Of a stretch of DNA of 64,000 nt, positions 23,614 to 57,773 are shown in pieces. How positions within the stretch are numbered: position 1 is the first letter of the stretch; each line of letters begins with the position of its first letter. Origin of the DNA: Roseinatronobacter domitianus (lineage in GTDB: Bacteria > Pseudomonadota > Alphaproteobacteria > Rhodobacterales > Rhodobacteraceae); assembly GCF_023336755.1 (NCBI RefSeq), contig NZ_JALZWP010000004.1, positions 1-64,000 on the forward strand, in the 5' to 3' direction. The position numbers and the translations under genes are program-made. The notes under the pieces were generated by a model. It worked only from the letters and a program-made list of their open reading frames with translations. It searched no databases and was not told the origin of the DNA.

Positions 23614-24812
23614 TGAGCAGTTTTCCGGACAGCTTGCCAAAGTTTGCCCAAAACCCGACGGATGTTCGATTTGTGCAAGACCCCTACCCAGCCTATGACC
23701 GGATGCGCGCGCTTGGGCCACTGGTGTATTGGCAGGATTACGCCCTGCCCTGCACCACCAGCTTCGCGGCAACAAACGCGGTTCTGCGTGACCGGCGCTT
23801 TGGGCGGGTGCCGCTGGAACCGCCCACCATACCGCCGCATCTGGCCCCGTTCTATGCAATCGAAGCGCATTCCATGCTGGAACTGGAACCGCCGCGCCAT
23901 ACCCGCCTGCGCGGGTTGGTGCTGCGGGCTTTCACCTCGCGCCGGATCGCGGCGCTTGCACCGGAAATCGACGCGCTGGCGCATGGTCTGATCGACACGC
24001 TGCCGGGGGACGAATTTGATCTGCTGGAACATTTCGCACGACCGCTGCCCGTCATCATCATTGCCCGGCTTTTGGGTGTGCCAGAATCAATGACCGCCGA
24101 CCTGTTGCGCTGGTCCAACGCCATGGTCGGAATGTATCAGGCCGGACGCAGCCGCGCGATGGAAGACGCGGCCGCTGTTGCCGCCACCGAATTCAGCGCC
24201 TTTCTGCGCGACTATATCGACGCAAGGCGCGCGCGCCCGGCGGATGACCTGGTAACCCATCTGATTGCGGCAGAAGAGGACGGGCAGACGCTATCTACCG
24301 AGGAAATGATCGCCACCTGCATCCTGCTGTTGAACGCCGGGCACGAGGCGACGGTGCACAGCTTGGGGTTGGCCGTGAAAACCTTGCTGCAGCATGGCCT
24401 GTGGCCTGCCCCGATCACAGACGCGCTGGTCGAGGAATGTCTGCGCTATGATCCGGCGCTGCACCTGTTCACCCGCTGGGCCTATGACGACATAGATGTG
24501 ATGGGCGTGACAATTCCGCGCGGCGCGCAACTTGCCTGCCTGCTGGGTGCTGCGAACCGCTGCCCGCGCCAGTGGGACCAGCCCAATAAGTTTGACCCCA
24601 CGCGCCCCGCCAAACCACATACCGGTTTCGGCGCGGGGCTGCATTTTTGCCTTGGTGCGCCACTGGCGCGGCTGGAATTGCAGCGGGCCTTGTCGGTGCT
24701 TGGCGCCCGCCTGCCCCGGCTGACACTTGCCGCGCCCCCACAACTTGCGGATATTTACCATTTCCACGGGCTAGAGCGGTTGATCGTCGCGCAAGGCACG
24801 CCTTCCCCTTGA
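23613..24812 (+). CDS. cytochrome P450
   Basis: This is a 399-residue class I-type soluble P450. It has the I-helix oxygen-binding segment NAGHEATVHS, the ExxR pair in EECLRYDP and the haem-thiolate loop FGAGLHFCLG with the ligand cysteine near residue 346. The start is taken as TTG at 23613, overlapping the upstream stop as TTGA; an in-frame TTG at 23580 is the alternative. No ferredoxin or ferredoxin reductase gene is nearby, so the electron donor must be encoded elsewhere. The substrate is unknown. Confidence 0.88.
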   Translation: MSSFPDSLPKFAQNPTDVRFVQDPYPAYDRMRALGPLVYWQDYALPCTTSFAATNAVLRDRRFGRVPLEPPTIPPHLAPFYAIEAHSMLELEPPRHTRLRGLVLRAFTSRRIAALAPEIDALAHGLIDTLPGDEFDLLEHFARPLPVIIIARLLGVPESMTADLLRWSNAMVGMYQAGRSRAMEDAAAVAATEFSAFLRDYIDARRARPADDLVTHLIAAEEDGQTLSTEEMIATCILLLNAGHEATVHSLGLAVKTLLQHGLWPAPITDALVEECLRYDPALHLFTRWAYDDIDVMGVTIPRGAQLACLLGAANRCPRQWDQPNKFDPTRPAKPHTGFGAGLHFCLGAPLARLELQRALSVLGARLPRLTLAAPPQLADIYHFHGLERLIVAQGTPSP

Positions 24813-28638: not shown

Positions 28639-30513
28639 ATGAGCAAGCCTTCCGACAACCCGGCAGACCCGTTCAAAAAGGCGCTGTCTGACACAGCCCG
28701 CACAATGGCAGACGCGCGTGACATGACCGTAACTTATTCGGTCGATCCCCCCGGCCTGTCGAATGATGCGATGCGTTTGCCGCAGGTCACGCGCCGCATG
28801 ACCCGCGACGAGGTCTTGCTGGCACGCGGCACCGCTGACAGCCTTGCCCTGCGCCACCGCTATCACGACACAGGCACCCATGCGCGCTACATGCCGCAAG
28901 GAGAGATGGCGCGCGAATTGTATCAGGCCATGGAGGATGCGCGCTGCGAGGCCGTGGGCGCACGCCACATGCCCGGCACGGCAGGCAATATCGACGCGCG
29001 CATCGCGCATGACGCCAGCCGTAAAGGTTATGCTCAAATCCGTGACCGCAAGGATGCCCCCCTGCCCGTCGCCGCCAGTTACATGATCCGCGAAATGGCG
29101 ACAGGGCGCGATCTGCCCAGTGGGGCCGATCATGTTCTGGACCTGTGGCGCGGCTTCATAGAGGAACGCGCGGGCGGCACGCTGGAAGGGCTTGAAAATG
29201 TGCTGGCCGATCAGAGCGCCTTTGCCCGCTTCACCCGCCGCATGATCGAGGATCTGGGCTTTGGCGACCAATTGGGCGACGACCCAGACGATACCGGAGA
29301 CGAGGACGAAGGCACCGAGGACGACCAAGAAGACCAGTCCGAAGACCCCGACAACCCCGACAGCCAAGGCGAAGAAGACAGCGCCGACGATGACAGCTCG
29401 GACGAGGACGGCCAGTCGCAAGACGCAGCCCAAGCTGATCTGGCCATGGACGAAGACGCCGAGGACGAAATGTCCGACGAGGCCGAACTGCCTGAGGGCG
29501 AGGCTCCGATGGACCCGCCGCCACCGCCGCCCCATTCCGAGGCAAGCGCGGATTACAAAGTGTTTACCACCGCCAATGACGAAGAAATCCGCGCCGAGGA
29601 CTTGGCCGAACCTGCCGAGTTGGAACGTCTGCGCGCCTATCTGGACCAGCAGTTGGAACCCTTGAAAGGGGCTGTGTCGCGGCTGGCCAACAAGTTGCAA
29701 CGTCGTTTGCAGGCACAACAAAACCGGTCGTGGTTGTTCGATCTGGAAGAAGGCACGCTCGATGCCGGACGGCTGGCGCGCGTGGTCGCAAACCCCACAA
29801 CCCCGCTATCCTTCAAGCAAGAAAAAGACACAGAGTTCCGCGATACGGTTGTCACGCTTCTGTTGGACAATTCCGGGTCCATGCGCGGGCGCCCCATCTC
29901 CATTGCCGCAATTTGCGCCGATGTGTTGGCCCGCACGCTGGAGCGGTGCAATGTTAAGGTGGAAATTCTTGGTTTCACCACCCGCGCCTGGAAGGGCGGG
30001 CTCTCGCGCGAGGCATGGCTGAATGATGGCCGCAGCCTGCAACCGGGCCGCCTGAACGATCTGCGCCACATCATCTACAAGCAGGCCGATGCGCCGTGGC
30101 GGCGTGTGCGCCCCAATTTGGGCCTGATGATGAAAGAGGGGCTGCTGAAGGAAAACATCGACGGCGAGGCGCTCGAATGGGCGCACCGGCGCATGTTGGC
30201 CAGGCCAGAGGCGCGCAAGATCCTCATGGTCATCTCTGATGGCGCGCCCGTCGATGACAGCACCCTGTCTGTGAACCCCGCCAACTACCTTGAACGCCAC
30301 CTGCGCGACGTGATCGCCATGGTCGAAAAGCGCCGCGCGGTGGAATTGCTGGCCATCGGCATCGGGCATGACGTAACCCGTTATTACGACCGTGCCGTGA
30401 CCATTACCGATGTGGAACAACTGGCCGGGGCCATGACCGAACAGCTTGCCGCGTTGTTCGACAAAGACCCGCGCGCCCGCGCCCGCTTTGTGGGCATCCG
30501 ACGCGCCAGTTAA
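28639..30513 (+). CDS. cobT: aerobic cobaltochelatase subunit CobT
   Basis: This is the second chaperone-like subunit of the CobNST cobaltochelatase. The 624-residue protein has the N-terminal CobT domain, a strongly acidic Asp/Glu/Ser region (about 209-290), and a C-terminal von Willebrand A domain with MIDAS sequence DNSGSMRG near 409. The length is normal for the family. It has its own 170-bp upstream region, since the preceding gene points the other way. Confidence 0.96.
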
Positions 30514-48038: not shown

Positions 48039-48120
48039 ACCGCGTCCTTGACCACCCGCTGAACCGGCGCATATGCCAAACAAGGCCGCGATCTCGCCGC
48101 CCAATCCGATTGGACACAAC

Positions 48121-49506
48121 ATGAGCACGCCGCGCACGCGCAACTTGCGGCAGGGGTCTATCCCCGGCCATTTCCGCGCGCTGGCAGTGCCTGCGGCTAT
48201 CGGAATGGTGTTCTCCACGCTCTATAACGTGGTGGACCTGTGGTATGCGGGGCTGCTTGGCACAGACGCGCAAGCTGGGCTGGCGATTACATTTCAGGTT
48301 TTCATGCTGCTGATCGCCTTTGGGGTTGGCCTTGGCAGTGCCATGTCGGCGCTGGTGGGCAATGCGCTGGGGGAAGATGACACAGCCGGGGCGAAACAGA
48401 TCGCAACACAAGGCCTTGTCTTTGGCTTACTGACGGCGCTTGCGCTTGGCGTGTCGGGGATATGGGGCTCTCCTGCGCTATTGGCGCTGGTGTCGGAACC
48501 GGGCGCTTATCGCGACGCCGCCAATGCCTATATGAACGTGATCCTGCTGGCCACCGCGCCCTTCCTGCTGGCCTTTGGGGGCAATGGAATTCTGACTGCG
48601 CAAGGCGACACGGATTCGATGAAACGGGCGCAGATCGCGGCATTTTTTGCCAATCTGGGGCTGAACCCGCTGTTCATATTCGGGGTGCCCGGGCTGATCG
48701 CGGAGATCGGGTTCAACGGCATCGCCCTGGCCACGCTGGTCAGCCAAACCGGGGTAATGGCCTATATCCTGTGGCGCGTCATGCAGTCAGAGGTGATGGA
48801 CGGCGCGCGGTCATGGCGCCCCGACCCGGTTCGTGCCAAAGAGATCGCGGCCCAAGCCCTGCCGTCGACCTTTGCCATGATGATCTTGCTGGTTGCGGGC
48901 TTTTTCGTGCAGATGTTCCTCAAAAGCTTTGGCCCGGAAGCCTTGGCCGCCTATGGCATCGGGCTGCGGATAGAGCAGTTGATCCTGCTGCCGGGGTTTG
49001 GCTTGACCGGCGCACTTTTGCCCATCGTCGCGCAGAATTTCGGCGCGGGGCAGCATGACCGCGTGCGCGACGCATGGTGGTTCTGCCTGAAGGTTGGCAC
49101 CGGGGTCATGCTTGTCGGGTCTGCGTTGCTATGGTTCGCGGCGGCACCCATGGTCGCGCTATTCAACGACGACCCGAATGTGATCCGCCTTGGCACCGAT
49201 TACCTGCATGTCGATGGGTTCATCTTGCCGCTTTACCTGGCGCTCTTCGCGGTCAACGCCATGTTGCAGGCGTTCAAGCGCCCCATGGCCACCGTCTGGA
49301 TCGGCATCTGGCGTCAGGGAATCGCAGTCGGCCTGTTTTGTTGGCTGTATGTGACAGTGTTCGACTGGGGCACATGGGGCGTGTGGTTCGGGATCGCAAC
49401 CGCAGTCATCAGCGGCCTTGCCCTGTCGCTTTGGGTCTTGGAACACATCGCACGCACCAAGATCGGCGGTCTGCTTGCCACCTCACAGCGATTGCCGGCC
49501 GCGTGA
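48121..49506 (+). CDS. MATE family efflux transporter
   Basis: This 461-residue protein has 12 predicted membrane helices in two similar halves typical of MATE antiporters, with the NorM-like N-terminal segment NVVDLWYAGLLG. It would export cationic compounds using a Na+ or H+ gradient. The ATG at 48121 is preferred; an in-frame ATG at 48073 would add 16 residues, and neither has a strong ribosome site. It is the last gene before the island. Confidence 0.92.
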   Translation: MSTPRTRNLRQGSIPGHFRALAVPAAIGMVFSTLYNVVDLWYAGLLGTDAQAGLAITFQVFMLLIAFGVGLGSAMSALVGNALGEDDTAGAKQIATQGLVFGLLTALALGVSGIWGSPALLALVSEPGAYRDAANAYMNVILLATAPFLLAFGGNGILTAQGDTDSMKRAQIAAFFANLGLNPLFIFGVPGLIAEIGFNGIALATLVSQTGVMAYILWRVMQSEVMDGARSWRPDPVRAKEIAAQALPSTFAMMILLVAGFFVQMFLKSFGPEALAAYGIGLRIEQLILLPGFGLTGALLPIVAQNFGAGQHDRVRDAWWFCLKVGTGVMLVGSALLWFAAAPMVALFNDDPNVIRLGTDYLHVDGFILPLYLALFAVNAMLQAFKRPMATVWIGIWRQGIAVGLFCWLYVTVFDWGTWGVWFGIATAVISGLALSLWVLEHIARTKIGGLLATSQRLPAA

Positions 49507-50044
49507 CACGTCCTTGGTGCGGGGCCAGTGTTGCACCGATGCAATTCGCTGTCACGGCGTTTGTCCAGACGATCAGCCTGACGCAGCAGCGCTCTGTTGC
49601 CGCTGAAGAAAAACGGCGCACCCAAGAGGATGCAGGATTAACCTGCTGCCCGTTCGTCCCCCAGTCTTAACGCAAGCCCTTGGGGTTAATGATCTTCGCT
49701 TTGGGCTCGGCGCGCTTCAGCGGATATTTTGTTGCCAAGCGATGAGTGCGGCCTGCCATTGTTGTCCATCAGAACACCCTACGTTATCGATCGGCACAAG
49801 GTTATGGATCGATGGCACCCATGGTTCGGCCAATTGGCTTATCTTCATGAGCTGATCGGCAAACCTGATGTGTCGGAGTTTCGCTGCAACCTCACAGGCG
49901 GTCGGTCTAACCGGTCTTTGAAACCGCCTGTCTGGATGTTTGATCGCGTCGTATCTGCCATCTGTCGCGCTGTCGATACGGCACATGTTGGTCTGGACAC
50001 CCTGACGGCGCTTCCGGAGTTGCTCCGCGAAGCGCAATCCATCG
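49507..50044. other. left end of the tRNA-Arg island, no gene
   Basis: This stretch holds the left copy of the direct repeat (49616-49632). A 131-codon plus-strand frame at 49729-50124 has no recognisable domain and runs antisense into a transposase remnant. No intact gene is supported. Confidence 0.5.
49616..49632 (+). repeat. left attachment-site repeat (att) of the tRNA-Arg island
   Basis: GGCGCACCCAAGAGGAT is an exact 17-bp copy of the 3' end of tRNA-Arg(CCG) at 55856-55872, in the same orientation. A direct repeat of a tRNA 3' end is the standard scar of tyrosine-recombinase integration. Confidence 0.8.
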
Positions 50045-50545
50045 ACCGGGTCACATTGGGCGCATCCGGCACCGCCAGAACATCAGGTTTCAGCCGCATG
50101 CGCAGCGTGCGTCATTGGACTTGAGCCAATGACCTCTCAATGGCGCACTGCACAGGTTGAGTTCCAGCGGGCAGTAGATCCGATAGACCCGTTTGTGGTT
50201 CCGCGGGTGCGCCTTCACATTGAACAGGGCAAGAAACACAGGCCAAACCGCCAAGTCTTGCGCGCATCCGTCCGCCCTGTCAGCAGAGCGGCGATCACTT
50301 CGTTCGCGGCGTTGGGATAGTTCCGTCACTTTTTTCCAAGGGCTTCCTTCAGCACGTCATTCTGCATGCTCAGGTCGGCATACATGCGCTTGAGGTGGCA
50401 CCGCGATAGTTCCAGACGGCGCGTGGCTGGACCACAAAAGCGCGCCATACCAGATCGGGCATCCAAAGACAGGGCAGCATCGCTGGCGAAACCGGTTGCA
50501 GAGGCGGCACTTGGCACAGGTGGAGGCCAACTGCGGCACCGCATT
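50045..50545 (-). mobile_element. degraded IS3-family insertion sequence
   Basis: On the minus strand the end of an OrfA is readable (LKRMYADLSMQNDVLKEALGKK split over 50326-50395), typical of IS3-family transposases. After a frame change, parts of OrfB follow: NHKRVYRIYCPLELNL (about 50165-50215) and LAVPDAPNVTRSMD (about 50050-50090), where an intact enzyme has a Trp before SMDF. The DDE core beyond this point is gone, and several frameshifts are present. Terminal repeats were not found. Confidence 0.75.
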
Positions 50546-50572
50546 TACTACATTGCCGTGTGATCCTGTTCA
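50480..50572. repeat. diverged repeat, copy 1
   Basis: The segment starting GCAGCATCGCTGGCGAAACC resembles 51477-51567 (ACAGCATCACTGGCAAACCC), with a similar end (CATTGCCGTGTGATCC against CATTGCCGCCTGATCC). Similarity is roughly two thirds by eye. It adjoins the IS3 remnant and may be part of the same element. Confidence 0.4.
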
Positions 50573-50755
50573 CAGCGGAGGTCTCTCAAATCAGCTAGCG
50601 TCAAGCAATCGCTTACATCAGGTGACGCGTGTGACCTGAAAAACAGGAAAAGATTACGCCATGACCTACCGCGGCATAATGCAGACTATCGAAGCCGCAA
50701 CGAAGCTCCGCGTTGCAAGGACCTCATCTGTCGAGGGAAAAATAGACACGATCCG

Positions 50756-51397
50756 ATGCACAGTAGCGTAATGCAAGATCGTCCCGTAGATATCTATGCA
50801 CTGCGCGCGCTGTTGGCCCTTGCGATTGGGGGGCTGTCCATTGTGGGTGTCGGCATTGCGCGCACCGAGGCACTTCCAGAAACGTATCATTTACCACCCC
50901 CACCCCCGCCACAATACGATCTGACAATCAGTGATGATGGGCAGGCTTTCGAATTCAGCGGTCGGGTAGATTTCGGCTTGACCGAAGCGTTGCGCGGGCT
51001 GGTCGCCTCAAATCCAAAGATCAAAAGGATAACACTGGAGAGCAAGGGCGGATACATTGCCGAAGCGCGTGGCGTCGTCACCGTTTTGCGTTCGAATGAG
51101 ATTGCGACGCATGTCCATGGGTATTGCGCATCGGCCTGTGCGTTGATTTGTGCTGGCGGAGCTATGCGTTCGCTGTCGTCCGAAGGACAGATCGGGTTCC
51201 ACCGCTATGCACTGGGGCATGGGCAAAATTTCGGCATGATCGATCCTGAAGTTGAAATGCAGCGCGATCTGGCGATTTACCGCGCACAATCGGTTGACGA
51301 GCAGTTTGTCCAGCGGCTGGCGACGCTGCCCAAAACGCCGATGTGGTATCCCGATCATGCAAAACTTCGGGCCGTCGGGTTGGTGACACTCCCTTGA
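50756..51397 (+). CDS. exported ClpP-like protein (COG3904 type)
   Basis: This 213-residue protein has an N-terminal membrane anchor (ALRALLALAIGGLSIVGVGIA), a proline-rich linker and a ClpP/crotonase-like fold. The latter has ESKGGYIAEARGV, HGYCASACALICAGG with a Ser in the position of the ClpP nucleophile between two Cys, and IGFHRYALG. These features match COG3904 predicted periplasmic proteins of unknown function. It is the only full-length GC-rich gene in the left half of the island. The start could also be the ATG at 50771. Confidence 0.75.
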   Translation: MHSSVMQDRPVDIYALRALLALAIGGLSIVGVGIARTEALPETYHLPPPPPPQYDLTISDDGQAFEFSGRVDFGLTEALRGLVASNPKIKRITLESKGGYIAEARGVVTVLRSNEIATHVHGYCASACALICAGGAMRSLSSEGQIGFHRYALGHGQNFGMIDPEVEMQRDLAIYRAQSVDEQFVQRLATLPKTPMWYPDHAKLRAVGLVTLP

Positions 51398-52055
51398 GCA
51401 CTCGACCTCGATGTCCCGCTGCTCAAGCATGATCGTCAAGAGCGCATCACACAGGATCGGGCCTCCAGAGAAATAACAGCATCACTGGCAAACCCGATTG
51501 CAGATCAGACATCTGGCCGAAATGAGCGCAAGCGCTTTATCGGCGCATTGCCGCCTGATCCACTCCAAACACCTTCCAACAGTCGGTGTCATGGTCGCCA
51601 ATGTCAAACAGCCGCCAGATCATGCCTCACCAATTTCAGCACATATCTCATCAATCGCGCCCCAATTGCTCCAACCGACCGCCGAACCGCCGAAATGCAG
51701 ATCGGCGTCGCCCTGATGAACCGCGTCTCAACCCTTGGCGCAGCCGCGATCATCCGCGTGGCATGACGTCAGCGCGGTAAGGGGCAGTCACGCCTCAGGC
51801 GTGGGTAATGCAACAACGCCATGCTGCGCGCCAAAATGGGCCAATTGCTTTTCGCAAGAGCCTAACTTTGGGCCAGCCAGTGCTGTTCACTTGCTTGGCA
51901 TTCCAAGTGCTTTATCGTCTTGAAAGACTGCACGATGACACATGATTAGGGGCTCGAATTCAAAACGTTCGACTTTCAGTCTGCTTGATCGCATCATCCG
52001 GTCACCAAGATTAGGTAAAGTGTAAGGCACGAAACACGCAATCTCAAATGCCACC
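51398..52055. other. gene-poor island segment
   Basis: No gene is supported. It contains the second copy of a diverged repeat (51477-51567). From about 51,900 onward the sequence turns visibly AT-rich. Confidence 0.5.
51477..51567. repeat. diverged repeat, copy 2
   Basis: It pairs with 50480-50572 in the same orientation, about 1 kb apart and flanking the ClpP-like gene. The match is imperfect and was judged by eye. Confidence 0.4.
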
Positions 52056-52262
52056 TTATGTCCCGCAGTTGCGCATTATGACGTTTCGTGCTGTTTTCAA
52101 AACCAGGTCTACTTGTTCATTTGTTCCTTGCACCCCCTCTAGCGCATCCACAAGATCTGGTACAAGAAGCGCCAAATCTGCCAATGTCTCCGGGTCTTCA
52201 ACAAGAATTCCCTCATCAATTTGCTGCTTGAGAAACATGAAGTCGAAACCGGTCTGTTCCAT
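52056..52262 (-). CDS. small acidic protein, unknown
   Basis: This 68-residue acidic, helical protein contains DEGILVEDPETLADLALLVPDLVDALEG. The composition is protein-like and an AAGGA lies just before the ATG, but spacing is tight and no family is recognised. It could be a real small gene of the island or chance. Confidence 0.4.
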   Translation of the reverse strand: MEQTGFDFMFLKQQIDEGILVEDPETLADLALLVPDLVDALEGVQGTNEQVDLVLKTARNVIMRNCGT

Positions 52263-52626
52263 TCCTTAATCCCTATTGCGACTTGTAAACGTCTCTTCGA
52301 TTCGAGAAAGCCCGCACAGGGGATTGCCCAAAGTGTGGTTCGCGTCAAAAGACGTAGCGCTGCTGCAACTCCGTAGCGTGATCACATTCTGATCCTCTTT
52401 GTTCATGCCTACGATACGGCATAAGAGCCTCGGACCATATGGGTCGGCAGAATGATGCGGCCACATCGGATACCCAGTGTCTGTAAGCGTCCTTGCAGCT
52501 TTATTACAAAAGCATTCTCCGTAGAAAAGTTGACAAGTTTGAACATGTTCACTTTGAACATGGCGCACATTGTCATCTTGGGAATTTCCCGATAAGAGTT
52601 CCGTGTTAAAAAACTGGGTACTCTCC
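52263..52626. other. intergenic region upstream of the island regulator
   Basis: This region holds the promoter and palindrome listed at 52530-52562 and otherwise shows no gene. Confidence 0.5.
52530..52562 (+). promoter_or_regulatory. promoter with overlapping palindromic operator
   Basis: TTGACA (52530-52535) is followed after 17 nt by TTTGAA (52553). Within it lie the 12-bp palindrome TGAACATGTTCA (52540-52551) and a direct repeat of TTTGAACATG (52538 and 52553). The overlap of promoter and repeats suggests repression, perhaps by the winged-helix protein encoded 65 bp downstream. Confidence 0.55.
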
Positions 52627-53196
52627 ATGATTACAACCGATCCACGAACGATGAACCTTGTGGCTCTTGGCATGGCCAAAGTAACGTATGGAGCGCTCCA
52701 GATACTTAGGCGGCATCTGGGAAATGACTTAGAGTTAGCACTAATCGGTTTTGCAGTCGTGATGCGTACAAGGCGTGACTTGTTTCAGATTGTGGAAAAG
52801 CACGGACTGAACGATGACACAATTGCCGAGATTAGTAGCGAGCAGGGCTTTTACACCTCAATCAATGAAATTCACAGATACACTGGCATCAACCGTGCAA
52901 CAGTGCGACGCAAGCTGGACAGGCTTCAGACCCTAAATATCGTCGAAAAAATTGAAGGCGACAAATGGCATTTGGTGGACTTCTCGCATGGCGAGAAGGC
53001 TCGCCCAGCAATAATGCTGCGCGATCTTCTACAAAACTACATGGCAATTACTAACAAGCTTGAATCTTTGTTACCGGAGGAAATGCATCCAATAATGGGG
53101 ACGACATTGGAAGAGCTAGGGTCACTCGAAGCCAAAGCACTCCTGGATGACGAAGTAGCAAGCAAAATTACGCGCAAGCTAGAGGTCAAACACTGA
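52627..53196 (+). CDS. winged-helix transcriptional regulator
   Basis: This 189-residue protein has a helical N-terminal part (MAKVTYGALQILRRHLG) and a central winged helix (SINEIHRYTGINRATVRRKLDRLQ, then NIVEKIEGDKWHLVD). A helical C-terminus that may dimerise follows. The HTH resembles IclR/MarR-type domains. It is AT-rich relative to flanking core genes, consistent with transfer. The palindrome upstream makes autoregulation plausible; targets are unknown. Confidence 0.72.
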   Translation: MITTDPRTMNLVALGMAKVTYGALQILRRHLGNDLELALIGFAVVMRTRRDLFQIVEKHGLNDDTIAEISSEQGFYTSINEIHRYTGINRATVRRKLDRLQTLNIVEKIEGDKWHLVDFSHGEKARPAIMLRDLLQNYMAITNKLESLLPEEMHPIMGTTLEELGSLEAKALLDDEVASKITRKLEVKH

Positions 53197-53722
53197 GGCT
53201 GGAACGCCTGATAAACCATGTATGCCTTGTCCGACCCTTGGTCTTACCTATTTAACACTGCGAAGTGAGATTAGGCGCTACCGAGGCATTTGCTAGATGC
53301 AGACGCCATCTGCAAAGAAGATCGCGCCCTTTTTGAAGCACAGAGGCAGCAACTCAAACGGTCAAGCTCTCGTTCGAGGTGGTGTAGAGGTATCTTCAAA
53401 GCAAGAGGTTTAATGCGCGGTAGTGTAGGCAAAAAAATTGACGGTCACAATCCGCGCCAACACTTAATTTGGATATTGCCGATCTTAACATCCAGTTAAC
53501 ATTATTAACCAACCGCCACTCGCAACATAGCGGCCTTCATCTGAATTAACACAACAAGACACGCAGTTGCTACAGCGCAGTTGAAACGCAGAGATCAAAG
53601 GCATGGGAACGCCCGAAAATTTACTGCGCCTATAGGCGTTTAATTTTTTTACACAGTCATAATGATTGCAACGAAGCAATATGATGCTCTCTCAAGACAT
53701 CGCCCCCAATCAACAAAGAATC
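53197..53722. other. AT-rich intergenic segment of the island
   Basis: No coding frame is supported. Short frames at 53290-53499 and 53485-53679 have no recognisable sequence. A T-rich stretch near 53640 could end transcription from either side but has no clear hairpin. Confidence 0.4.
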
Positions 53723-54334
53723 TTAGATCAACATGCGTTCTCGAGAGACAACGCAGGCATGGGCACGATTGCGTGCTCCAAGCTTTTGGCATACTTGGCG
53801 CATAATCATCTTTACCTGTGCCTCACTGATCCCGAGGTCACGCGCTATTTCTTTGTTGATCATGCCGTCGGCAGCCAAGCGTAAAACAAAGAGCTCGCGC
53901 TCTACAAGCGGCTCCGAAGTTAGGTTGCTTGCGTTTAATTGGCTTTCCTGAGGCTGATGATGTGGGATAAACGTTTGCCCCGAATAAATAAGCCTTAGGG
54001 AGACATCTAAAGATTTCAGAGGCATGGATTTTGGGATATAGCCCTTCACACCCAACTTCACCGCATCGTCTAGAAATCTTCTGTCTATCTGCCCGCTAAA
54101 CAAAACAACATTGACGCCGGGCGCGCGCTTGAGGACACTATCCACACTCGACAAACCCATCATCCCAGGCATCCGGAGATCCAGTAAAACAATATCATAC
54201 TCGTTAGATGAAAGTTCATCCATGGTGCCGGCCAACGAAGTTGCAACAACAGCAGAGAGCCCCTCATTTCTTGAAAGCGACTGCGCAACTGCCTCTGCAA
54301 GCAACTCATGGTCGTCAGCTATCAGAACGTTCAT
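53723..54334 (-). CDS. NarL/FixJ-type response regulator (orphan)
   Basis: This 203-residue two-domain regulator has a receiver with acidic pair ADDHE (7-8), phospho-acceptor Asp in IVLLDLRMPG near 52 and Lys in YIPKSM near 103. A LuxR-type HTH follows (LAADGMINKEIARDLGISEAQVKMIMRQV in two halves). GAGG lies 6 nt before the ATG. No histidine kinase is in the island, so its kinase is elsewhere or lost. Codon use is AT-richer than core genes. Confidence 0.9.
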   Translation of the reverse strand: MNVLIADDHELLAEAVAQSLSRNEGLSAVVATSLAGTMDELSSNEYDIVLLDLRMPGMMGLSSVDSVLKRAPGVNVVLFSGQIDRRFLDDAVKLGVKGYIPKSMPLKSLDVSLRLIYSGQTFIPHHQPQESQLNASNLTSEPLVERELFVLRLAADGMINKEIARDLGISEAQVKMIMRQVCQKLGARNRAHACVVSRERMLI

Positions 54335-54829
54335 AGGTGGCCTCTATAACAAAAGTTCGCAGGTATTTTATCGAACGATTCGATAGTAGCTCTTCTGCTG
54401 AAGAAAGCGAGCCCTTCCATCACGAAAGAACTTTATATCTATAATTTAAACTAAAGTTAAAAATTTTTCACCTATCCAGCACTCATCTTTTTCAAACATG
54501 GCGCATTAATGTAAAGAAATCTGCGTATTCGTCAGATTTAGGGTCTATTTATTTCCACTTTGAGGGATATTGCATGCCTCTGCAAGGAAATCAATCAGTT
54601 AGCAATCGTTCCTGACTGATTGACTGATGCGTAGATGGGGCGGCTAAGCCACGTCCTTCCAAAAAGCCATGGCATGCCGCGTGATCGATTGGCGAGGACG
54701 CCACGCTGCCGCTCGATGAAGGGTGTGGAGCCTGCGCGAAACAAAGATAGATTCGCGGTCTGATCAGTCGCGGCATCATCTCATTCAACTGGGAGTTAAG
54801 TCAGCAACTACACAGGCGCGGCCGTTTTT
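54335..54829. other. AT-rich segment upstream of the response regulator
   Basis: 54,335-54,610 is strongly AT-rich and should contain the regulator's promoter. 54,618-54,830 is GC-rich and probably belongs to the IS5 remnant that follows, though it could not be read as transposase. Confidence 0.45.
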
Positions 54830-55098
54830 CCCACGGAGCAGGCATTGGCTTGTTTCAGCTCGCGGTTACGACGCCGACTGGTTCAGAGGCACATTATGAG
54901 ACAAGCAGATGAAGCTCTGCTTATCCGGTTGCAGCACGCGAAAGACCTTGGTGAAAGGCGCAAAAAATTTCGCAACCGGATGAAAATCATGCGAGGTTGG
55001 CTAAAGTGGTGGCGAAGGATTACAACGCGCTACGGCCGGTGCAGGATAGTGTTCCCTTTCGCAATTATACTTGCATCAACCGTCCGTTCACGGTTCGA
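54830..55098 (+). mobile_element. degraded IS5-family (IS427-like) transposase
   Basis: One frame reads ARGYDADWFRG (about 54,862-54,894), the typical ADRGYDADWFR block around the second catalytic Asp of IS5-family transposases. After a frame change the next frame gives RNRMKIMRGWLK, WWRRITTRYGRC and FAIILAS, matching the C-terminal RNRIE..FGRLKDWRRIATRYDRC region. Stops and frameshifts show it is dead. Confidence 0.72.
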
Positions 55099-55183
55099 AT
55101 AACTACAGGTCTTGCACTTGGGATAAAGTGAGCAACAAGCAGGATATAACAATCATTCAACCTTGCTTTATGCATCACAGCCA

Positions 55184-55417
55184 CTAAACAGAGTAAAGGT
55201 CTTCTACGGCGTTTAACACACAATAGAGCACCAAGATAAAAGCAACCCAAGCATAATAAACCAATATGGCCGCAACAAAGTTTTTTGATATTATAAAAGA
55301 GATGATTGCCAAAAATGCGCCCATAAGAGCGGCTATCACAATAACACCAAGGAAATTTGTCCCATTGCCACTACAATGATAATCAGGACTACTTTGTTGA
55401 TATTTGCTTTCCATCAT
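55184..55417 (-). CDS. small two-helix membrane protein
   Basis: This 77-residue protein has two hydrophobic stretches (FLGVIVIAALMGAFLAIISF and FVAAILVYYAWVAFILVLY) after a short polar N-terminus. It is AT-rich like the surrounding island. There is no known family; it may be a chance frame, but the membrane pattern supports a real gene. Confidence 0.45.
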   Translation of the reverse strand: MMESKYQQSSPDYHCSGNGTNFLGVIVIAALMGAFLAIISFIISKNFVAAILVYYAWVAFILVLYCVLNAVEDLYSV

Positions 55418-55854
55418 GCGTCCAACGAATAAATACAGCTGCGCGGGCTTCTTTGGCGATGTAAATTGAGAACATGTTGTATGATAATTTCATAGCTATC
55501 TTTAGACGCGAACAGCCAATCAAAGGTGATACACGGTGTTTGTGGGATAGCCGCCTGCGTCGAGACTGTGCAGAGTTTTGTGGCCTGGCGCATTTTGTCA
55601 CGCCACAGGGAAGCGGCGTTTGAACATTATTGCGAACTGGTTTTTGAAACCGCCTGCCATTCGCGCATTGAGCACTTCCACAGGCGACGCGTTACTTTTT
55701 CAAACGCGCAGGCGCGGGAGGCATGAAGCGAAACCAGCTTAGCTTACGCCAATCTATCGCCTAAGTTAACCGATAGTATAAAGGCAACCGGAGCTATATC
55801 CGCTTCTGATCCCAGAAAGCGAAAACACGTAAAAACAAACACTAAGGAAAAATA
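55418..55854. other. right end of the island, no gene
   Basis: No gene is supported. A 66-codon plus frame (55526-55726) lacks features. The segment AACTGGTTTTTGAAACCGCC (about 55,625) resembles ACCGGTCTTTGAAACCGCC at 49,910, possibly ends of related lost elements. Confidence 0.4.
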
Positions 55855-55931
55855 TGGCGCACCCAAGAGGATTCGAACCTCTGACCTCTGCCTTCGGAGG
55901 GCAGCGCTCTATCCAGCTGAGCTATGGGTGC
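55855..55931 (-). tRNA. tRNA-Arg(CCG)
   Basis: On the minus strand this is a 77-nt cloverleaf: acceptor GCACCCA with TGGGTGC, discriminator G and an encoded CCA. The anticodon loop CTCCGAA gives anticodon CCG, which reads the CGG codon. The T-arm contains GGTTCGAATCC. Its 3' end faces the island and supplies the right attachment site, so the tRNA stayed intact after integration. Confidence 0.97.
55856..55872 (+). repeat. right attachment-site repeat (att) inside tRNA-Arg
   Basis: The 17-bp GGCGCACCCAAGAGGAT within the tRNA 3' end is repeated exactly at 49616-49632, 6.24 kb away in direct orientation. Confidence 0.8.
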
Positions 55932-55977: not shown

Positions 55978-57198
55978 TCACGCGAAAAGATCATGACACA
56001 GTTCCAGCCCGTCGATCAGCGCATCCACTTCCTCGTGGGTGTTGTACATGGCAAAGGACGCGCGGCAGGTCGCGGTCAGGTCCAGATGCTCCATCAACGG
56101 GCCGCAGCAATGTTGCCCGGCGCGCACGGCGATGCCTTTCTGGTCCAGCACGGTAGAGATGTCATGCGCATGGGCCGCGCCGTCCAGCACAAAGCTGAAA
56201 ATAGCGCCCTTGCCCGGCGCGTGGCCCTGCACACTGATCCAGTTCAGCCCCGCCAGCCGGGTTTGCGCATAATCGCGCAACGCGGCTTCATGCGCTGCAA
56301 TATTATCCAGCCCGATGCCCATCATATAGTCGATCGCCACGCCCAGCCCGATCTGCTGGACAATGCCAGGAGTGCCGGCCTCGAACTTGTGGGGCGGGTC
56401 GTTATAGACAACGCCCTCGCGCGTGACCTCACGGATCATGTCACCGCCGCCCATGAAGGGGCGCATCTCGGCCTGTCGGTCGCGGCTGATATAGATTGCC
56501 CCCGATGCCGACGGTCCATACAGCTTATGCCCCGTCACAGCGTAGAAATCGCAGCCTATCGCCTGAACATCGACCGGCATATGCACGGCGGCTTGTGAGC
56601 CATCCACAAGCACCGGCACGCCCTTGGCGCGCGCGCCTGTGCAGATAGCAGACACATCTACCACGGTGCCCAACACGTTCGACATATGGGTGACCGCAAC
56701 CAGTTTGGTGCGCGGGCCGATTGCGTCGATCACCGCTTGCGGGTCCAGGCTGCCATCGGCCTCGGTGTCGACCCATTTGATGACCACGCCCTGCCGCTCG
56801 CGCAGGAAATGCCACGGCACGATATTGGCGTGATGCTCCATGATCGACAGCACGATCTCATCGCCCGACTCTAGCTGCGGCATGCCCCAGCCATAGGCCA
56901 CAAGGTTAATCCCCATGGTCGTGCCGGTGGTATAAAGGATCTCATCCTCATGCGCCGCATTCAGGAACCGTTGCAGCTTGCCGCGCACGCCCTCGTATTT
57001 GTCGGTCGCAAGGTTCGACAGATAATGCAGCCCACGGTGCACATTGGCGTATTCTTCGGCATAGCCACGCGTGACCGCGTCAATTACCGCACGCGGTTTC
57101 TGTGCCGACGCACCATTGTCCAGATAGACCAACGGCTTGCCGTTCACCTCGCGCGACAGGATCGGGAAATCGGCGCGTATCTTGCCTACGTCCAGCAT
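55978..57198 (-). CDS. sufS: cysteine desulfurase SufS
   Basis: This PLP enzyme of the SUF system (406 residues) takes sulfur from cysteine as a persulfide. It has the PLP lysine in TGHKLYGP near 228, the active-site Cys in [11 protein letters not shown] near 365 and the class V aminotransferase N-terminus [11 protein letters not shown]. The ATG at 57198 lies 7 nt after AAGGAG and is preferred over the GTG 6 nt upstream. It is last in the suf operon. Confidence 0.95.
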
Positions 57199-57200
57199 TG

Positions 57201-57773
57201 TCACACTCCTTGCGGGCCAAGGCCCAAGATAGCCAGCACGATAGCCAACACCACGGCCAGGCCAAAAAACGCGAACACAATCCCCACCGTGACCTTCAAC
57301 GCCGACGTAAACCCGTGCAGCGCCATGGTAAAGTTAACCAGCAACCACATGAAAATCGCCAGCGACGCCATGGTGACAAAACCGAATAGCGGCGGAACCA
57401 GAAGCAGAACCAGAATCTGCACGATCTGGACCGCGATCATCACGAATTGCAACCACGCCAGCAGCAGCAGCGTGTCAGGAAAGGTGCCACTGCCTCCGGC
57501 AAGCCGGCCTATGCCCTGCACCGCCACGACCAAGCCCAACAAGACCATGGTCTGGAACACAGCCATAAAGATCAGGCTGCCACCGAAAGCACTTTCGCCC
57601 AGCACCAGAATAGAGGCCTGCCCCACCAGCACCGACAGAACCACAACAATGACAAAGCCAAGCCAGCGCGCATCATCGGGCGGGTCCAACGCCAGCAACC
57701 GTGCCGCAGTTTCGCGCGGTGCAGTTAGTGTGGAGCGCAGCAGAGCCGCGACAGTCGCAAGTGTCAAATCCAT
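57201..57773 (-). CDS. Yip1-family membrane protein A
   Basis: This 190-residue protein has about five membrane helices (for example WLGFVIVVVLSVLVGQASILVL in two parts) and the Yip1/YIPF-type layout. Its end abuts the sufS start. It sits between sufD and sufS with a second similar protein next to it. The function is unknown; the pair is conserved with suf genes in Rhodobacterales, from memory, so a link to cluster assembly is possible but untested. Confidence 0.78.
   Translation of the reverse strand: MDLTLATVAALLRSTLTAPRETAARLLALDPPDDARWLGFVIVVVLSVLVGQASILVLGESAFGGSLIFMAVFQTMVLLGLVVAVQGIGRLAGGSGTFPDTLLLLAWLQFVMIAVQIVQILVLLLVPPLFGFVTMASLAIFMWLLVNFTMALHGFTSALKVTVGIVFAFFGLAVVLAIVLAILGLGPQGV

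Follow-up and report, generated by a model that had tools for sequence, protein, structure and literature searches.

The window analyzed here, the first 64,000 nucleotides of contig NZ_JALZWP010000004.1 of Roseinatronobacter domitianus (assembly GCF_023336755.1), shows a 6.2-kb island of low GC content (49632-55854) located between an intact tRNA-Arg(CCG) gene and a short displaced copy of the 3' end of the same gene. A decayed insertion at the tRNA 3' end is well supported by the geometry of the region, a unique repeat, a composition of foreign type, the failure to find a collinear counterpart in congeners and the finding of other elements at the same tRNA. Our preferred reading, held with moderate confidence, is that this decayed insertion lies at a junction formed by a rearrangement that fused a tRNA-Thr locus with the tRNA-Arg locus. 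The island itself is of a known kind; novelty comes from its location at a rearrangement junction and from what is probably a double tRNA scar.

The direct repeat and the tRNA-Arg(CCG) locus

The tRNA-Arg(CCG) gene (55855-55931, minus strand; ARAGORN, Rfam 70.7 bits) is intact and its 3' end forms the proximal boundary of the island; the Rfam scan of the window reported nothing besides this tRNA. Its 5' neighbour, conserved in the genus, is a gene named by reading as a sufS-like cysteine desulfurase (55978-57204, minus strand). The repeat, GGCGCACCCAAGAGGAT, is an exact direct repeat of 17 bp with copies at 49615-49631 and 55856-55872. The right copy is the 17-bp segment that immediately precedes the terminal A of the CCA end, and the left copy (minus strand), which forms the distal boundary, is found on the same contig 6.2 kb downstream of tRNA-Arg, in the same orientation and outside any conserved coding domain. 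This displaced fragment, which stops one base short of the CCA end, would represent an attachment-site duplication. Allowing up to one mismatch, GGCGCACCCAAGAGGAT occurs in the whole 3.36-Mb assembly at these two sites only; up to three mismatches within the window gave the same two sites, in relation to a mean of 0.31 sites in shuffled sequences, of which 4 out of 100 showed at least two.

GC content is 0.50 between the repeat copies and 0.60 in the window; beyond 51750 it drops to 0.47. Of 232 sliding windows of equal length, none shows a GC as low as the island, and the eight lowest listed all overlap it. The seven 2-kb stretches with the most deviant tetranucleotide composition, taking the window without 49-56 kb as reference, start within 51001-54001. 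GC at third codon positions (GC3) ranges between 0.36 and 0.58 in five island frames versus 0.75-0.76 in three neighbouring genes. The genus comparison included 37 genomes, that of the window (G000) among them, with up to eight candidates scored per genome, and no collinear match to the island was found in the 36 congeners (genomes, contigs and loci are designated with G, C and L numbers). Matches were obtained in 36 of the 37 genomes, the own one included; those in other genomes are pieces of insertion sequences (IS) and single genes, the longest of about 640 bp, and no collinear copy turned up on plasmids. Five recombinases (from G010, G003, G030, G060 and contig C31 of the own genome) used as queries for integrase traces gave only chance-level matches in the island, the best (E value 0.024) being the tRNA end itself and the others showing E values of at least 0.14; furthermore, the Pfam scan of nine island frames reported no integrase family.

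These results bear on a preliminary description of this DNA, which had placed a 17-bp repeat at the tRNA 3' end and an island between its copies. The repeat exists and the right copy was located correctly; the left one had been set at 49616-49632, one base too high. The proposed check of GC and codon bias came out in favour of the island, no recognisable integrase was found, in line with the description, and the term "stranded" fits. The two findings that were to speak against the island, its conservation as core DNA in related strains and many genomic copies of the repeat, did not appear. Its wording "intact attachment repeats" is correct only in part: the two copies are identical but retain 17 bp, whereas the integrase-linked copies of congeners span 45-46 bp.

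Such copies show that the same tRNA gene is occupied by other elements in the genus. In G010, a second copy of the 3' part of its own tRNA-Arg (45 bp by reading) is found 7.7 kb downstream of tRNA-Arg(CCG), and the element (L080:1035-8782) contains a 438-residue tyrosine integrase beside the distal copy, with a primase-like gene in between. G003 and G030 show a 46- or 45-bp tRNA-Arg copy adjoining a 459-residue tyrosine integrase, and in G004 and G032 such copies are located at contig ends. The island resembles the elements of G010, G003 and G030 in the tRNA used and in the 3' part copied; in these elements the integrase is kept and the copy begins at the anticodon loop, whereas the window fragment begins at the end of the T loop (T/J subsites in the terms of the section of PMC4383910 consulted). 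From this different start, the lost integrase of the island probably differed in specificity from the enzymes of congeners. Two ways of lengthening the repeat were rejected. As a degenerate longer tRNA copy like those of congeners, the inner 28 bp reach a score attained by 2246 of 5000 shuffles and at 1716 of 7000 window positions; the outward extension, over the outer 24 bp, reaches a score found at 870 of 7000 window positions. Both are at chance level.

A further case is G060, where a fragment of a recombinase-like protein (L094:2793-3377) reaches tRNA-Arg and has its last codons inside the tRNA, so that it finishes in WRTQEDSNL, read from the strand antisense to the tRNA-Arg 3' end. Related sequences extend up to the tRNA, by similarity, in G027 and G034 (also L019 and L069). 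The G060 fragment matches phrog_95 (1.5e-7) and plasmid proteins annotated as "recombinase family protein" (26-34% among the matches listed); it shows no Pfam family and no confirmed relative on viral contigs. By reading, it may be a serine-type recombinase, and if so it would be at odds with the consulted passage of PMC4383910, according to which tRNA genes are targeted, as far as known, by tyrosine recombinases only. The first DNA 3' of tRNA-Arg, compared in 24 congeners (with less than 1.6 kb available in six) and one Defluviimonas, is common to a few small groups and mostly different. In G024, a counterpart of the cobT-like gene found in the window at 28639-30513 ends about 260 bp from tRNA-Arg(CCG) (L070:16259-16596), which is a changed neighbour.

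The left flank and tRNA-Thr(CGT)

The left neighbour of the island is a gene encoding a MATE-family transporter (48073-49506, plus strand; Pfam MatE 5e-53). DNA matches to it were found in four of the 36 congeners (G060, G028, G034 and G015), all with MATE contiguous with the same preceding dehydrogenase-like gene, and in none of them is it next to tRNA-Arg. In G060 both are on contig C4, about 939 kb apart and in the same direction; in G028 and G034 they are on different contigs; and in G015 the only tRNA in 13.3 kb around MATE is a tRNA-Thr. A protein search in another genome collection gave seven loci: three are the same congeners, two are Defluviimonas records (L120 and L121) with MATE 6.5 kb from tRNA-Arg(CCG) in another relative orientation, and two show no tRNA. 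The empty site that had been proposed in the preliminary description, with MATE directly at tRNA-Arg, was thus found neither in the four congeners by DNA nor in the seven loci by protein. The left flank differs from that of congeners by a rearrangement, and the island thus probably lies on a junction which was invisible from the window's sequence.

Instead, in three of the four congeners a complete or partial tRNA-Thr comes after MATE. In G015, tRNA-Thr(CGT) begins 45 bp past the MATE stop codon; in G034, a tRNA-Thr is located about 6.8 kb behind MATE; and G028 shows a 47-bp exact piece of tRNA-Thr 2.9 kb behind MATE, with the full gene on another contig. The genome of the window has its full tRNA-Thr on contig C31, which starts within an IS3-type frame (by reading), with an intact frame for a 436-residue tyrosine integrase directly at the tRNA 3' end (L145:927-2369). 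Behind MATE, the window shows TGTTGCCGCTGAAG (49595-49608, minus strand), which matches the 3' end of tRNA-Thr(CGT) in 13 of 14 positions. It is the sole match to this end within two mismatches on both strands of the window, and its orientation agrees with that in G015. From left to right come MATE, 88 bp, the Thr remnant, 6 bp (AAAAAC), the Arg remnant, the island and tRNA-Arg. These 14 bp are a probable remnant of the tRNA-Thr locus that follows MATE in congeners.

The ready alternative, which we consider somewhat unlikely, is an ordinary decayed tRNA-Arg island, with MATE and tRNA-Arg already neighbours before the insertion and the tRNA-Thr 14-mer a chance match. It is favoured by a match of only 13 of 14 positions and by the fluid gene order seen around both genes, as in G024 and in Defluviimonas. 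Its weak point is that tRNA-Thr or a piece of it stands behind MATE in three of the four congeners with a DNA match to the gene and that the window 14-mer has the same place and orientation. Furthermore, a control scan with 24 tRNA 3'-end 14-mers, representing 11 kinds of tRNA, over the 64 kb and both strands gave only one other match outside tRNA genes and the tRNA-Arg fragment. This match, at 24070, is to a variant 14-base tRNA-Arg 3' end with a single mismatch and was taken as chance.

A derivation of the island from a tRNA-Thr element was also considered and is not supported, as no similarity was found at E 0.01 (DNA) or 0.001 (translated) to the examined ends of the tRNA-Thr loci of G000 (L145) and G028 (L177 and L178). 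The tRNA-Thr piece of G028 (L177:513-9282) adjoins genes which, by reading, encode a large helicase-like protein and SbcC/SbcD-like nuclease subunits and may be defence cargo.

Origin of the junction

It is improbable that the 17-bp copy is a by-product of rearrangement or IS activity at the tRNA and that the low-GC stretch was pieced together from IS debris. The lack of an integrase and the position of the region on a synteny breakpoint agree with such an origin, as do several IS remnants. Broken remnants of IS3-family transposase genes are found in three pieces at 49654-50399 (minus strand): 49654-49765 resembles the C-terminal end of an IS3-type frame on contig C22 of the own genome (named by reading), 49770-50033 matches plasmid DNA without annotation at that place, and 50038-50399 matches annotated IS3 transposases on plasmids. 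An IS5-family remnant at 51671-51828 matches an annotated IS5 family transposase at 83% and an ISPpa4-type sequence at 74.5%, and similar pieces are present in several congeners. A second IS5-type remnant (54800-55101, plus strand) has five matching 304-bp pieces in G060, and the one examined lies over a transposase-like frame (IS5 family named by reading). In addition, sequence matches point to an IS256-family (mutator) transposase remnant at 55559-55682 (minus strand). The similarity of one of these remnants begins about 20 bp inside the left repeat copy. Against this, a direct copy lying downstream of the tRNA with unchanged orientation and ending one base before its 3' end is the signature of site-specific insertion, inversion alone would make no direct copy, and elements are found at tRNA-Arg in several congeners.

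There is a slim chance that a tRNA-specific tyrosine integrase itself fused the Thr and Arg sites, the island at 49.6-55.9 kb being the scar, in a bacterial counterpart of events first suspected in Thermococcales. In the part of PMC5495485 consulted, the tRNA-bordered inversions of these archaea break synteny at two different, oppositely oriented tRNA genes, in one case Leu and Thr, and tRNA genes at breakpoints double as integration sites. The window would be similar in that its synteny breakpoint probably involves two different tRNA loci; it differs in concerning a bacterium and in being known from sequence alone, with no known catalyst.

That a minimal island is still mobile by means of an integrase acting in trans, as had been suggested in the preliminary description, is scarcely credible: the two 17-bp copies are identical and the genome shows 12 tyrosine-recombinase family matches, but the nine of these compared are not close to the integrases found beside tRNA-Arg copies in congeners (identity of at most about 30% over long alignments, with 44% along a single 57-residue stretch), the region is fragmented, and neither congeners nor plasmids yielded a collinear copy.

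The preferred reading, a decayed tRNA-Arg insertion on a junction of two tRNA loci, implies the following history. A foreign element would have entered the 3' end of tRNA-Arg(CCG) site-specifically, regenerating the tRNA and displacing its 3' fragment, now 17 bp, to the far side. The element may then have lost its integrase, gained several insertion sequences and decayed, leaving behind two intact-looking regulators and an extra protease-like gene. The tRNA-Thr locus, if occupied by an element such as that of contig C31, would carry a tRNA-Thr fragment at the distal end, beside MATE. The MATE end would then have been joined to the downstream side of tRNA-Arg when the two occupied integration sites rearranged with each other, probably by inversion or deletion, with the tRNA-Arg insertion taking place either before or after it. 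From the layout of G060, in which MATE and tRNA-Arg are codirectional, one inversion with breakpoints behind both would yield the tail-to-tail junction of the window.

Several points weigh against this history. G060, alone among the congeners in having MATE and tRNA-Arg on the same contig, shows no tRNA in the stretches scanned behind MATE, and its tRNA-Thr(CGT), seen elsewhere, has a different acceptor sequence; therefore, G060 cannot serve as the ancestor. The repeat is shorter than those of congeners, the five queries found no integrase trace, and the tRNA-Thr match, spotted only in hindsight, is short and imperfect at one position. No genome with the pre-insertion junction was seen, and the partner junction of the exchange was not found in the genome of the window, where about 10 kb 3' of tRNA-Arg and 6.7 kb behind MATE of G060 gave only short weak matches, so that the two sides of the exchange could not be matched up. 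Other neighbours again are seen in G024 and Defluviimonas, gene order being fluid here in general. Finally, the relative of one island regulator in another genus (G071) is located away from the tRNA-Arg of that genome (C1 versus C13).

Genes of the island and relation to known systems

The partly AT-rich interval with IS3 and IS5 remnants, a regulator and an orphan response regulator, as it had been described earlier, was recovered, with the addition of the IS256 and the second IS5-type remnants. Its open frames comprise a 213-residue protease-like protein, a helix-turn-helix (HTH) regulator, the response regulator and two small frames without family. A 77-residue AT-rich frame (55184-55417, minus strand; GC 0.37) shows no family above the cut-off and is possibly a small membrane protein.

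The 213-residue protein (50756-51397, plus strand) is distantly similar to ClpP-type proteases (PF00574, E 0.029, and NF045542, E 0.0006, both below the cut-off; PHROG 7e-5). Its gene is a second copy, the other one being located on contig C6 of the same genome, with upstream DNA common to the genes of G010, G019 and G021. In a tree of 26 entries, the C6 copy groups with G015, G060, G028, G034 and G024 (100/100), whereas the island copy clusters with G021 (94/78, not starred); the two copies fall within one poorly resolved group of 11 entries. The island copy is likely, though not proven, to come from outside this lineage. Six matches to the gene were found on plasmids, all below 60% identity.

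The HTH regulator (52627-53196, plus strand) is an intact frame with a match to Pfam HTH_IclR below the cut-off (E 2e-4). Its relatives were searched in 294 further genomes that sample the larger family; this search gave the 72% identical protein of G071 and one weak match in G122; no match was found on plasmids or viral contigs. Palindromes of the GAACATGTTC type are found upstream of both the island gene (52541-52562) and its G071 relative, and the former is a candidate operator. The response regulator (53723-54334, minus strand), also an intact frame, contains a receiver and a LuxR-type DNA-binding domain (Pfam Response_reg 2e-20 and GerE 3e-14). No kinase gene adjoins it; a relative on contig C22 of the own genome stands near a hybrid histidine kinase. 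The search of plasmids gave 1444 records, all below 60% identity.

Elsewhere in the window, a gene encoding a LEM-3-like GIY-YIG protein (PF22945; 60456-61226, minus strand), with a GC of about 0.45, is located between two suf-type genes; the counterpart place in G060 is 0.67 kb long and shows no DNA match to it. In the same congener, an open frame with repeated VHPRVGGEQ and SSPRGRGT peptides (L182:1472-2029) looks like a translated array of clustered regularly interspaced short palindromic repeats.

Islands collected by Islander are bracketed by a tRNA gene and a displaced fragment of its 3' end, range between 2 and 200 kb and are required to contain an integrase, as set out in the consulted part of PMC4383910. 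The window agrees with this in the tRNA and the fragment sharing replicon and orientation, the downstream position of the fragment and the length of 6.2 kb. It differs in the lack of an integrase, by which the island fails the filter, in a fragment of 17 bp and in the probable second tRNA fragment just outside. Among alphaproteobacteria, Sinorhizobium meliloti shows some tRNA genes reused by elements with direct repeats of the tRNA 3' end, according to the consulted text of PMC11476347. Repeated use of a tRNA site is common to both cases; those of S. meliloti concern prophages and islands with integrases, and no fusion of two sites is described in that text.

Taken alone, the island is one more decayed member of a large known class. 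Its location on a synteny breakpoint, with two tRNA remnants 6 bp apart, indicates that tRNA integration sites may retain scars after the death of the mobile element. Should the tRNA-Thr scar prove genuine, it would record the participation of two tRNA integration sites in a rearrangement, and the insertion of elements would be linked to the change of gene order in this fluid genus.

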